DNA of 64,000 bases, from positions 62,001 to 126,000 of the forward strand of contig CALXAH010000006.1 in the NCBI GenBank assembly GCA_944386225.1, read 5' to 3'. The position numbers were made by a program, and so were the translations under genes. Below, one piece after another: positions 1,113 through 7,013 of this stretch. The stretch comes from an uncultured Gemmiger sp. Its GTDB lineage: Bacteria; Bacillota; Clostridia; Oscillospirales; Ruminococcaceae. The notes below the pieces were generated by a model. It had not been told where the DNA came from, did no database searches, and was given only the letters and a program-made list of their open reading frames with translations. Positions within the stretch are counted from its first letter, which is position 1; each line of letters starts with the position of its first letter.

Positions 1113-2465
1113 ATGGAAAAACTGCCCCGATATCTGCCCATCGACTACACGAAATACGACCCGTCCATCCCGGATGAAAAACGGGAAGCCTATTTCGGCC
1201 TGCCAAGCAAGGTGCAGTTCTGCAGCGAATGTGTGATGAGCAACCAGAAGCCCAACAGCTGCCAGGAGTTCGAGCACACCATCCGCTCCAAAAAGGCCAC
1301 CATGGTGATCCAGGAGGACGGCGTCTGTGATGCCTGCCATGCCTGCCACAACAAGGAGGGCCGCATCGACTGGGAGGACCGGGAACGTCAGCTGCGGGAA
1401 CTGTGTGACCGCTACCGCAAAACCGACGGCAGCTACGACTGCCTGGTGCCCGGCTCCGGCGGCAAGGACAGCTTTTATGCCGCCCATCTGCTGAAATACA
1501 AGTACGGGATGCATCCGCTCACCGTTACCTGGGCCCCGCACATCTACACCACCTGGGGCTGGCAGAACTTTGAAGCCTGGATCCACGCGGGGTTTGACAA
1601 CTACCTGTGCACCCCCAACGGCCTGACCCACCGGCTGCTGACCCGGCTGGCTACCGAAAATCTGTTCCACCCGTTCCAGCCGTTTATTCTGGGTCAGAAG
1701 CAGCTGGCCCCCAAGATGGCGGCCAAGTTCGGCATTCCGCTGGTATTCTACGGGGAGAACGAAGCCGAGTTCGGCAACCCCATCGCGGACAACGACACCG
1801 CCCTGCGGGACGAACGGTTCTTTGCCACCAACGATTTCGACCATATCTATCTGGGCGGCGTATCGCTGCGGCAGCTCAAGGAGGATTTCGGGGTGGACGC
1901 GGCTGACCTGGCCATCTATCTGCCCTGCGAAACCAGCGACGTGGAGAAGAACCACATCCAGGTACATTACATGGGCTACTACGAGAAGTGGCATCCCCAG
2001 GGAGCCTACTATTACAGTGTGGAGCACGGCGGGTTTGTTCCCAGCCCGGAGCGTACCGCCGGTACCTATTCCAAGTACAATTCCATTGATGACAAGGTGG
2101 ATGATTTCTTCTATTACACCACCTACATCAAGTACGGCATCGGCCGCTGCACCTACGACGCGGCCCAGGAGATCCGCAACCACGAGATCACCCGCCCGGA
2201 GGGTGTGGCCCTCTGCCGCAAGTTCGACGGAGAATTCCCCGCCCGGTTTGCCGATGAATTCTTCCGGTATATCTCCATCGACAAGAAGCATTTCGGCAAG
2301 GCGGCCGATTGCTTTGAACAGCCCCAGATGGATCTGGATTACTTCATGCATCTGGCCGACCGGTTCCGTTCGCCCCACCTATGGAATTACAAGGACGGTG
2401 TCTGGTCGCTGCGGCATACCCCCTATGAGGGCGACAGCCTCTGCGGCTGGGGAGCAGCCCGATGA
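1113..2465 (+). CDS. wbuX: N-acetyl sugar amidotransferase (WbuX/WbpG/PseA family)
   Basis: This 450-residue protein is a PP-loop ATP pyrophosphatase with the adenylation motif SGGKDS at residues 115-120. It also has two cysteine groups (C37, C40, C50 and C72, C75, C78) typical of the WbpG/PseA family. In other bacteria this enzyme works with HisH- and HisF-like partners to turn an activated N-acetyl sugar into an acetamidino sugar for O-antigen or flagellin glycans. Here the HisF- and HisH-like genes follow with overlaps, so the trio is intact. No nucleotide-sugar or glycosyltransferase gene is nearby, so the substrate is unknown. Confidence 0.8.
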   Translation: MEKLPRYLPIDYTKYDPSIPDEKREAYFGLPSKVQFCSECVMSNQKPNSCQEFEHTIRSKKATMVIQEDGVCDACHACHNKEGRIDWEDRERQLRELCDRYRKTDGSYDCLVPGSGGKDSFYAAHLLKYKYGMHPLTVTWAPHIYTTWGWQNFEAWIHAGFDNYLCTPNGLTHRLLTRLATENLFHPFQPFILGQKQLAPKMAAKFGIPLVFYGENEAEFGNPIADNDTALRDERFFATNDFDHIYLGGVSLRQLKEDFGVDAADLAIYLPCETSDVEKNHIQVHYMGYYEKWHPQGAYYYSVEHGGFVPSPERTAGTYSKYNSIDDKVDDFFYYTTYIKYGIGRCTYDAAQEIRNHEITRPEGVALCRKFDGEFPARFADEFFRYISIDKKHFGKAADCFEQPQMDLDYFMHLADRFRSPHLWNYKDGVWSLRHTPYEGDSLCGWGAAR

Positions 2466-4937: not shown

Positions 4938-7013
4938 ATGCAGAACGTACCGGAACTGTTTGGCAGTATGGTTTTTAATGACAAAGTGATGAAGGCGCAC
5001 CTCCCCCGGGATGTGTACCGTTCTCTGAAAAATACCATTCAGCGGGGTGCGCCGCTGAATCTGGATGTGGCCAATGTGGTGGCTACCTGTATGAAGGACT
5101 GGGCGGTGAGCAAGGGCGCCACCCATTTTACCCACTGGTTCCAGCCCATGACCGGTGTTACCGCCGAAAAGCACGACAGCTTCATCAGCCCCTGCGGCGA
5201 TGGCGGCGTTATCATGGACTTCTCCGGCAAGGAACTGGTCAAGGGCGAGCCGGATGCGTCCAGCTTCCCCTCCGGCGGCCTGCGTGCCACCTTTGAGGCC
5301 CGCGGCTATACCGCCTGGGATCCCACCAGCTACGCCTTCATCAAGGATGACACCCTGTGCATTCCCACGGCATTCTGCAGCTACACCGGCCAGGTGCTGG
5401 ACAAGAAAACCCCGCTGCTGCGCAGCATGGAGGCGCTGAGCCGTCAGGCGGTGCGTGTGCTGGCGATGTTCGGCAAAAAAGCCTGCCGGGTTACCGCTAC
5501 CATCGGGCCGGAGCAGGAGTATTTCCTGGTCAACAAGCAGGACTATGCCTGCCGCCCGGACCTGATCCTGACCGGCCGTACCCTGGTGGGCGCCCCCGCC
5601 CCCAAGGGTCAGGAGATGGAGGATCACTACTTTGGTTCCCTGCGGCCCCGTGTCAAGGCGTTTATGGCCGACCTGGATGAGGAGCTCTGGAAGCTGGGCA
5701 TCCTGGCCAAGACCGAGCACAACGAGGTAGCCCCCTGCCAGCATGAGATGGCCCCCATCTTTGGCACCGCCAACATTGCCACCGACGCCAACCAGCTGAC
5801 CATGGAGGTCATGAAGAAGGTGGCCGACCGGCACGGTTTTGCCTGCCTGCTGCACGAGAAGCCCTTTGAGGGTGTCAACGGCAGCGGCAAGCACAACAAC
5901 TGGAGCATGAGCACCGACAAAGGGGAGAACCTGCTGGATCCGGGTTCCACCCCGGCCGAGAACACCCAATTCCTGCTGTTCCTCACCGCGGTGATCAAGG
6001 CGGTGGACGATTTCCAGGATCTGCTGCGCATCAGCGTGGCCAGCGCCGGCAACGACCACCGTCTGGGCGCCAACGAGGCGCCTCCGGCCATCGTGTCGGT
6101 GTATGTGGGTGATGAGCTGCAGGCGGTGATCGATTGCCTGGTCGAAGGCACTCCCTGCCATCCCAACGCGCCCACCGTACTGGATACCGGCGCCGTGGTG
6201 CTGCCCAATCTGCCCCGGGATACCTCCGACCGGAACCGTACCAGCCCCTTTGCCTTTACCGGCAACAAGTTTGAGTTCCGCATGCCCGGTTCTTCCTTCA
6301 ATATTGCCTGCACCAACGTAATGCTCAACACCGCGGTGGCCGATGCGCTGGCCCAGTATGCGGATGAGCTGGAGGGCAGCGTTGATTTCCAGAAGGATCT
6401 GCTGGCCCTGATCCGCCGCGAACTGGCGGCCCATCAGCGCATCCTGTTCAACGGCAACGGCTACGGCGAGGAGTGGCCGGTGGAGGCCGAGCGCCGGGGC
6501 CTGTGCAATTTCCGCACCACCCCCGAGGCGCTGGTACACTACACCGACCAGAAGAACGTGGAGCTGTTTGCCCGGCACGGCATCTATACTCGGGAAGAGA
6601 TCGCTTCCCGGCAGGAGATCCTGCTGGACGAGTACGGCAAGGCGATCCGTATTGAGGCCCTGACCCTGCTGGACCTGGTGCGTCAGCAGATTGCCCCCGC
6701 CTGCATCAAATACGCCAACGGCCTGGCCGCCGGCGTGAGCGCCAAGAAGGCGCTGGGCATTGAAGTGCCCGCCGAGGCGGCGCTTACCGGCAAGGTGAGC
6801 GTGCTCACCGGCGAGATGCTGGCGGCCGCCGACAGCCTGGACGCCTGCGTGGCGGCTATGCCGCAGGATGTGACCGAGCTGGCCCGCTACTGCGCCGACA
6901 AGGTGCTGCCCGCCATGGCGGAGGTTCGCACCCCGGCCGACAAGCTGGAGCAGACGGTGGATCGTTCCCTGTGGCCGCTGCCCACCTACAGCGATATGCT
7001 TTTCTACGTATGA
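4938..7013 (+). CDS. glnN: Glutamine synthetase type III
   Basis: This 691-residue protein has the size and signatures of GSIII, including PFEGVNGSGKHNNWS near residue 310 and the ATP-site region around GNDHRLGANEAPPA. The ATG at 4938 follows GGAAGGAGAG; the frame is open to a TTG at 4917, which lacks a ribosome site. Like GSI, it makes glutamine from glutamate and ammonia, but as a dodecamer from a separate family found in Bacteroidetes, Clostridia and cyanobacteria. It ends the operon, and the type I enzyme lies only 4.6 kb upstream. Confidence 0.95.
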   Translation: MQNVPELFGSMVFNDKVMKAHLPRDVYRSLKNTIQRGAPLNLDVANVVATCMKDWAVSKGATHFTHWFQPMTGVTAEKHDSFISPCGDGGVIMDFSGKELVKGEPDASSFPSGGLRATFEARGYTAWDPTSYAFIKDDTLCIPTAFCSYTGQVLDKKTPLLRSMEALSRQAVRVLAMFGKKACRVTATIGPEQEYFLVNKQDYACRPDLILTGRTLVGAPAPKGQEMEDHYFGSLRPRVKAFMADLDEELWKLGILAKTEHNEVAPCQHEMAPIFGTANIATDANQLTMEVMKKVADRHGFACLLHEKPFEGVNGSGKHNNWSMSTDKGENLLDPGSTPAENTQFLLFLTAVIKAVDDFQDLLRISVASAGNDHRLGANEAPPAIVSVYVGDELQAVIDCLVEGTPCHPNAPTVLDTGAVVLPNLPRDTSDRNRTSPFAFTGNKFEFRMPGSSFNIACTNVMLNTAVADALAQYADELEGSVDFQKDLLALIRRELAAHQRILFNGNGYGEEWPVEAERRGLCNFRTTPEALVHYTDQKNVELFARHGIYTREEIASRQEILLDEYGKAIRIEALTLLDLVRQQIAPACIKYANGLAAGVSAKKALGIEVPAEAALTGKVSVLTGEMLAAADSLDACVAAMPQDVTELARYCADKVLPAMAEVRTPADKLEQTVDRSLWPLPTYSDMLFYV

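Follow-up and report, generated by a model that had tools for sequence, protein, structure and literature searches.

A sugar-amidation gene trio within a glutamine synthetase operon of an uncultured Gemmiger sp., and its probable place in an ANTAR-type nitrogen regulon

The stretch of DNA considered here (the window) comprises 64,000 nucleotides of contig CALXAH010000006.1 from an uncultured Gemmiger sp. Near its 5′ end lies a trio of sugar-amidation genes, wbuX, wbuZ and wbuY, set among genes of nitrogen assimilation in the order glnA-ANTAR-wbuX-wbuZ-wbuY-asnA-glnN, with a hairpin/terminator leader between the ANTAR gene and wbuX (Table 1). A first-pass annotation had described the five genes from wbuX to glnN as one run. 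These are confirmed as open reading frames (ORFs) at the coordinates proposed, with overlaps of 4 and 16 nucleotides and gaps of 13 and 37. The unit begins earlier than was thought, however, as glnA and the ANTAR-domain gene had been overlooked. Addition of the upstream contig stretch completes glnA as a 437-amino acid ORF, the 5′ part of which begins 966 bases before the window. The best match of a glnA relative (L020) is TIGR00653, at 365.4 bits and below the cut-off of 429.15. Genes were called with a home-made codon model, so the start positions are approximate, and they were clustered by BLAST. An alternative TTG start for glnN at 4917 would leave a gap of 16 nucleotides after asnA. A scan of positions 1-7200 for the sigma-70 consensus found no promoter, against 1.6 expected in shuffled sequences.

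Table 1. Genes and leader elements of the glnA-wbuXZY-asnA-glnN unit (window coordinates).
Feature	Coordinates	Strand	Basis and remarks
glnA, type I-like glutamine synthetase, 3′ part	-966..347 (1..347 inside the window)	+	Gln-synt_C domain
ANTAR-domain regulator with pseudo-receiver	386..958	+	PF03861, 46.6 bits (cut-off 27.3)
Antiterminator-type hairpin, 5-bp stem, hexaloop AAAGGC at 984-989	979..994	+	25.1 bits with model R1
Overlapping terminator-like hairpin, then T-rich tail	980..1041	+	Fold of 959-1050: -50.4 kcal/mol, z -7.7
wbuX, N-acetyl sugar amidotransferase (long, LpNASAT-like)	1113..2465	+	TIGR03573, 349.5 bits (curated cut-off 203.2)
wbuZ, HisF-like synthase subunit	2462..3241	+	HisF-like; 4-nt overlap with wbuX
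wbuY, HisH-like glutamine amidotransferase	3226..3888	+	TIGR01855, 199.2 bits (cut-off 105.4); 16-nt overlap with wbuZ
asnA, aspartate-ammonia ligase	3902..4900	+	TIGR00669, 351.6 bits (cut-off 292.8); 13-nt gap after wbuY
glnN, type III glutamine synthetase	4938..7013 (ATG)	+	GSIII_N and Gln-synt_C-ter; 37-nt gap after asnA

The sole PDB sequence matched by WbuX at E ≤ 0.001 is 8WEX, the Legionella N-acetyl sugar amidotransferase (663.8 bits, residues 11-436). Its SGGKDS (PP-loop) and CxxC...GxCxxC (tetracysteine) motifs are kept in at least 97% of the 77 long WbuX sequences compared. The available part of PMC10607449 states the PP-loop SGGXDS and CXXC...[GN]XCXXC as the motifs of N-acetyl sugar amidotransferases. 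WbuZ falls below both curated cut-offs, that of HisF and that of WbuZ itself (TIGR03572: 244.1 versus 299.7 bits); the protein is classed as HisF-like, and the name WbuZ is given by position and kinship only. WbuY carries the motifs GICLGMQ and QFHPEKS, which we take to be catalytic through the Cys of the former and the His-Glu of the latter.

The loci taken for WbuX were the best 80 of 281, and 77 long WbuX rows entered the tree; NAD_synthase, used as a first probe, was uninformative about the trio. The ANTAR gene lies directly upstream of wbuX in 23 of the 77 rows, which form one side of a branch with support of 100/99, and the linkage is assigned a single origin. The remaining 54 rows comprise 12 with a glycan module (families c11-c14), 17 with Leg-type clusters and 25 that fit no label. 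The asnA-glnN pair follows the trio in 8 of the 23 ANTAR-linked rows (L010-L012, L020-L023 and the window), although the contigs of two of the 23 (L017, L028) end too early to judge; in L025, glnN alone directly follows the trio. A separate family sample of 118 genomes was queried with WbuX, a close WbuX being defined as E ≤ 1e-150. Sixteen genomes hold one, and in 13 of these an ANTAR match lies 83-172 bases upstream, measured between match edges. The search of related genomes that the first-pass annotation had suggested thus finds the linkage conserved. Separate promoters without such linkage, the picture it had set against its own proposal, are not what is seen: the linkage is kept in 23 rows and no promoter-like site lies in window positions 1-7200.

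Every ANTAR-wbuX gap examined (L062 apart, in which pyrG intervenes) folds into a strong hairpin, the 5′ arm of which can form a small hexaloop hairpin instead. The small hairpin of the window reads CAGGC[AAAGGC]GCCTG, and the loop consensus of the element is AANGRC. In a short transcript the small hairpin is the minimum fold, at -9.6 kcal/mol in the window, and is no more stable than those of shuffled sequences. In the longer leader the terminator becomes the minimum, with z-scores of -7.7 in the window, -4.2 in the glnA leader and -5.5 in the wbuX leader of L048. The window terminator was unflagged by a simple scan and missed by the energy-test rule given below; an Rfam scan of positions 1-9000 returned one match, at E 0.23 and far below its gathering score. 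By analogy, the small hairpin overlapping a terminator looks like half of a known ANTAR antiterminator.

The energy test counted a gene as positive when a hexaloop hairpin and a terminator overlapping it lay in the 230 bases before that gene. With a loop of the form AnnGnn, the element was found in oscillospiral loci before 49 of 59 long wbuX genes (48 without L056, a spurious case in coding sequence), 17 of 21 pyrG, 13 of 25 glnA, 11 of 22 glnN, 7 of 14 dapL-like and all five split-gltB-like genes, with lower counts for gltB (3/17), asnB (1/4) and asnA (1/9). The control genes of the same loci gave 8/532, two of these being amtB (L029 and L031), and none was scored before the ANTAR gene (0/25), wbuZ (0/56) or a short form of wbuX (0/16). 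In distant taxa the counts were 0/19 for wbuX, 2/217 for other genes and 1/19 for wbuY. With any other loop the test scored 10/59 long wbuX genes versus 101/532 other genes. Among the ten wbuX misses, the window, L041, L050 and L058 bear the element by eye, and L032, L035 and L054 bear a version with a three-pair stem. The element was scored in every ANTAR-linked row but the window (22 of 23) and in 9 of the 12 glycan-linked rows. An earlier sequence-based test had given an excess before wbuX (23/56). A second reached 29/56, against 11/992 for other genes outside eight named classes, 37/1156 for control loops and 5/2312 for Markov shuffles. Both were replaced by the energy test because sites visible by eye had been missed. 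In two loci, L034 and L045, a long WbuX with the leader stands without adjoining WbuZ and WbuY.

The structure was examined at 59 distinct sites, with two spurious rows excluded (wbuX of L056, gltB of L085) and the window added. Pair counts are biased upwards, since sites had been selected for A1, G4 and a stem of four or more pairs. A closing C-G pair and A2, neither of which was required, are each present in 59/59. The stem covariation score is 0.807, versus 0.281 in shuffles (0/500) and 0.03-0.17 in slid controls; pairs changed on both sides show no excess (4 versus 3.5 in shuffles).

Promoter-like sites were sought within 75 bases upstream of the element, in a scan without a random control. 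They were present at glnA (13/13), glnN (11/11), pyrG (16/17), split-gltB-like (4/5), gltB (1/2), asnB (1/1) and asnA (1/1) sites, at none of the dapL-like sites (0/7) and at 18 of the 48 wbuX sites. In 62 of the 65 sites so equipped, 6-16 bases separate the end of the -10 box from the stem, so that another hairpin would hardly fit upstream. The wbuX sites divide by lineage, with 17/26 outside the ANTAR-linked rows and 1/22 inside (L027). In the ANTAR-linked clade, transcription of the trio thus seems to start at the glnA promoter and to pass an internal switch; in many sister rows the trio seems to have its own promoter and the same switch. As leader-bearing rows occur on both sides of the tree fork, membership of the regulon may predate the operon linkage.

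It appears that the element extends to a set of nitrogen genes. On stretches of the same genome, model R1 of the element scores 25.1 bits at wbuX, 21.5 at glnA, 18.8 at pyrG and 17.4 at the dapL-like gene; in the stretch with the Leg-type genes (L092) no R1 site exceeds 13.9 bits. A scan of the genome, in which 150 of 1868 candidates were scored, gave 24 matches: the glnA and wbuX leaders, one before amtB, 20 inside predicted ORFs and one that is intergenic and ambiguous (C13:22221). Across the 118 family genomes, with 72 candidates scored in each, R1 sites averaged 2.74 in the 84 genomes with an ANTAR match and 1.03 in the 34 without (P 1.6e-5), and at least three sites were found in 40/84 versus 5/34. 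Twenty regions with 24 sites were read from the top of the list, a non-random choice in which the pyrG site of G023 repeats L055. Sixteen of the 24 have, by eye, a promoter-like start and are followed by a nitrogen-metabolism gene; the other eight do not look genuine. These 16 precede glnN (6), split-gltB-like genes (4), asnA (2) and gltB, amt, pyrG and a dapL-like gene (1 each). The dapL, pyrG, asnB and amt models exceed their cut-offs. The labels of the glutamate synthase genes are the analysts' own: gltB-like c7 is a cut fragment that matches the large subunit at 689.8 bits, below the cut-off of 1047, and for split-gltB-like c40 the sole match, to a class II glutamine amidotransferase (purF, 45.6 bits), is weak. 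Behind the same type of leader, L129 (G000:C1:60900-64600) and L153 carry an ammonium transporter with a fused P-II domain. In L158, L160, L161 and L165, leaders occur in pairs on opposite strands, about 200 bases apart, for divergent split-gltB-like and glnN or asnA genes.

The predicted structure of the ANTAR protein (mean pLDDT 90.5) shows a receiver-coiled coil-ANTAR fold. It matches RNA-bound EutV (6ww6) with a TM-score of 0.73 and AmiR (1qo0) with 0.71; the first structural match by E-value is Rv1626 (TM 0.56). As to the signal, contact of the regulator with GlnA or P-II would be a guess.

The first-pass annotation had called the trio an orphan. Among the neighbours scanned within approximately 10 kb, two small ones of which had no family, there is indeed no nucleotide-sugar enzyme or glycosyltransferase. 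The same genome nevertheless carries a Leg-type locus on another contig (C1:82-105 kb), which encodes LegC, NeuB-type, NeuC-type and LegB-family proteins over their NCBIfam cut-offs (465.3 versus 420, 460.6 versus 399.65, 395.4 versus 235.9 and 501.3 versus 475 bits, respectively), together with a CBS nucleotidyltransferase. TIGR04180 is presumed here to be the LegB family. Beside the Leg-type genes lies a run of families c11-c15 and c9: an epimerase-like protein, a TIM-barrel protein, two GT2 glycosyltransferases, an FAD oxidoreductase and a membrane protein (the last by eye). This run recurs after the trio in 13 Gemmiger formicilis-type loci; the tree has 12 such rows because the WbuX of L066 is cut. 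Placed after the trio in a sister lineage and beside the Leg-type locus here, the glycan module thus bridges the two.

The distribution of these genes points the same way. The NeuB of the Leg-type locus has counterparts in all 16 genomes with a close WbuX, and at E<1e-140 in 19 of the 118. The hypergeometric P for this co-occurrence is 4e-17, with the NeuB threshold chosen after the list had been viewed; at E ≤ 1e-40 (NeuB in 33/118) it is 5e-11, and neither value is corrected for kinship. Thirteen of the 16 genomes also have the FAD protein c14, which lies within 30 kb of NeuB in seven and within 10 kb of WbuX in two. In addition, 17 distant WbuX rows sit in Leg-type loci. Of the two readings offered by the first-pass annotation, the one in which the trio serves a distant glycan locus under control of nitrogen status gains from the Leg-type locus elsewhere in the genome, from NeuB in 16/16 and from an ANTAR-type attenuator common to nitrogen genes. 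On these sequence grounds, a role in a distant Leg-type glycan, under nitrogen-type control, is the most likely one for the trio.

Control of nitrogen genes by ANTAR proteins is established. In the portion of PMC3369931 available, nitrogen genes are the main ANTAR targets, including glutamine and glutamate synthases and ammonium transporters. The target RNA described there is a pair of hairpins with A1 and G4, both being needed for antitermination, and a single stem-loop binds less well. According to the accessible part of PMC8934654, one hexaloop is the minimal ANTAR binding motif, termination at a dual motif is averted only by contact with each of its loops, and sites with a single loop are left open; dual loops are used again in PMC8164766, as far as its available text goes. 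The present system resembles the EutV, NasR and AmiR regulons of these partial accounts (PMC3369931, PMC8934654) in the ANTAR fold, the A1/G4 hexaloop, the conserved closing pair, the overlap with a terminator and the nitrogen targets. It differs in that most sites have one hairpin shortly after the promoter, in the lack of a phospho-acceptor Asp and in the inclusion of a sugar-amidation operon. WbuX agrees with LpNASAT (8WEX and the available part of PMC10607449) in its long form, PP-loop and tetracysteine motif, but its gene sits in a glnA operon, not next to glycan genes. The 17 Leg-type loci with amidation genes (among L070-L089, from Pseudomonadota, Geobacteraceae, Cohnella and others) have the same trio, and likewise LegC and LegB families with NeuB/NeuC-type enzymes in the genome. 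Here, by contrast, the trio and the Leg-type genes are separated and a nitrogen-type attenuator precedes the trio; the leader occurs before 0/19 distant wbuX genes. Among the titles and abstract openings searched, with subscription journals and supplements outside the scope, none brings the amidation trio together with ANTAR or glnA; neither the one-hairpin form nor an amidation trio as a regulon member was met in that literature.

Taken from the sequence, the trio probably forms the acetamidino group of a legionaminic-type sugar, as one member of an ANTAR-type nitrogen regulon. WbuY would hydrolyze glutamine and WbuZ would hand on the ammonia, while WbuX would activate the N-acetyl oxygen with ATP. 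The product would be an acetamidino (N-acetimidoyl) group on a legionaminic-type nonulosonic acid from the locus on the other contig. The trio would be transcribed from the glnA promoter, behind an ANTAR-type attenuator at which the terminator between the ANTAR gene and wbuX halts transcription by default. The ANTAR protein, encoded just upstream, may bind the AANGRC hexaloop, whereupon the small hairpin would retain the 5′ arm of the terminator. With termination prevented, the polymerase would continue into wbuXZY-asnA-glnN. Since the element precedes glnA, pyrG, dapL and amtB and was not found in the Leg stretch, it would be the amidation, not the synthesis of the Leg-type sugar, that is tied to nitrogen status.

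As the trio lies behind the same type of RNA switch as genes of ammonium assimilation, the cell surface of these gut bacteria may, on this prediction, change with nitrogen supply. A broader proposal is more speculative and rather doubtful: that in the Oscillospiraceae a one-hairpin, phosphorylation-independent ANTAR switch at transcript 5′ ends runs both ammonium assimilation and the last step of a surface sugar, so that surface charge (N-acetyl versus cationic acetamidino nonulosonic acid) reports nitrogen status in the gut. If true, the nitrogen nutrition of common gut commensals would be wired to their surface chemistry through one tractable RNA switch. It would also test ANTAR control by a single hexaloop, against the requirement for contact with both loops given in the accessible part of PMC8934654, and the 105 predicted leaders would form a ready set for such tests.

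Several observations weigh against this interpretation. The eut system needs both hexaloops in the available parts of PMC3369931 and PMC8934654, and most sites here have one hairpin: a second AxxG hexaloop lies upstream in only 11/105 sites and downstream in 7/105, with none seen upstream in the window. At the end of strand 3, where the phospho-acceptor is expected, the receiver carries Asn in 24/25 rows and His in L056, which makes signalling by phosphorylation unlikely. AmiR also works without phosphorylation. Two rows, L013 and L026, lie inside the smallest clade that holds the 23 ANTAR-linked rows and lack the linkage; L013, L060 and L061 (by eye) and L056 have no leader before wbuX. To these are added the five ANTAR-negative genomes with three or more R1 sites and the share of candidates scored in the genome's own scan. 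On the side of the sugar, the NeuB and NeuC models take their names from sialic acid, so the Leg assignment rests on LegC and LegB, and the cytidylyltransferase of the locus is weak (65.7 bits to PseF, cut-off 205.7). A NeuB of this kind, 53-77% identical, occurs in eight genomes that lack a close WbuX, and WbuX and the Leg-type NeuB share a contig in one of the 16 genomes, 740 kb apart. Lastly, were the regulon a response to starvation, it would be strange to use up glutamine for a sugar.

Other explanations draw on the same evidence. The first-pass annotation had also entertained a non-sugar substrate, by which the trio would act on an acetamido compound of nitrogen metabolism and be joined with glnA, asnA and glnN by pathway. 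The neighbourhood fits this, as gene order and leader type are shared with glutamine and ammonia enzymes and, as far as the clustering reached, the 23 ANTAR-linked rows have no glycan genes next to the trio. Nothing else positive speaks for it. WbuX retains the hallmarks of LpNASAT, the 17 distant rows in Leg-type loci and the 12 sister rows beside the glycan module point to a sugar, NeuB accompanies WbuX in 16/16 genomes and asnA-glnN follows in 8/23 rows only, which leaves this account improbable. Another account touches the switch and not the substrate: the leader would be an attenuator whose ligand is some other RNA-binding protein or a small molecule. The single hairpin at most sites, where eut needs two (PMC3369931 and PMC8934654, in the parts available), the receiver without a phospho-acceptor and the sites in some ANTAR-negative genomes are all compatible with it. 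It is nevertheless unlikely, if still worth keeping in mind. The loop A1/G4 and the conserved closing pair fit the ANTAR rules in the available part of PMC3369931, a single hexaloop is the minimal binding motif in that of PMC8934654, the ANTAR gene adjoins glnA and the leader, and site number tracks ANTAR presence.

The hairpin could also be a mere terminator of glnA-ANTAR, with the trio read from an unseen promoter of its own and the neighbourhood accidental. The strength of the terminator suits this, as does a small hairpin that alone is no more stable than shuffles. Outside the ANTAR-linked clade, though, 17 of 26 wbuX sites have a promoter-like site 6-11 nucleotides before the stem, a position at which the ending of another gene makes little sense. 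With a covarying small stem, no promoter-like site in window 1-7200 and linkage kept in 23 rows, the idea is very unlikely. That WbuZ and WbuY might be the histidine-pathway HisF and HisH of this genome, which they resemble, is ruled out for practical purposes: a separate hisF lies on another contig at C3:135700 (317.6 bits, over the cut-off) with a HisF-like match beside it, and WbuZ has Gln at the position of an Asp in that HisF (VLSVQAKR versus VLSVDARR).

Family scans within approximately 10 kb of the trio place pyrG, dapL, a polysaccharide deacetylase, RmuC, PadR, DnaJ and others upstream, and a hydrogenase, a radical SAM protein, a D-Ala-D-Ala carboxypeptidase, a sugar isomerase, Der and PlsY downstream. 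The polysaccharide deacetylase lies about 8 kb upstream on the opposite strand and the carboxypeptidase 3 kb downstream. The hydrogenase is a monomeric [FeFe] enzyme (TIGR04105, 626.6 bits) at window positions 7167-8675 on the minus strand, facing the operon, and is found at that position only in the window, L010, L011 and L012.

A second, short WbuX is encoded in L094 (G000:C3:68001-88000). It spans 9098-10219, has 373 amino acids and matches TIGR03573 at 346.4 bits; it adjoins flippase-like and MBOAT-like genes (by eye), with no HisF/HisH pair beside it. In many sister loci the trio has a short WbuX upstream of it, so a single HisFH pair may supply two amidotransferases.

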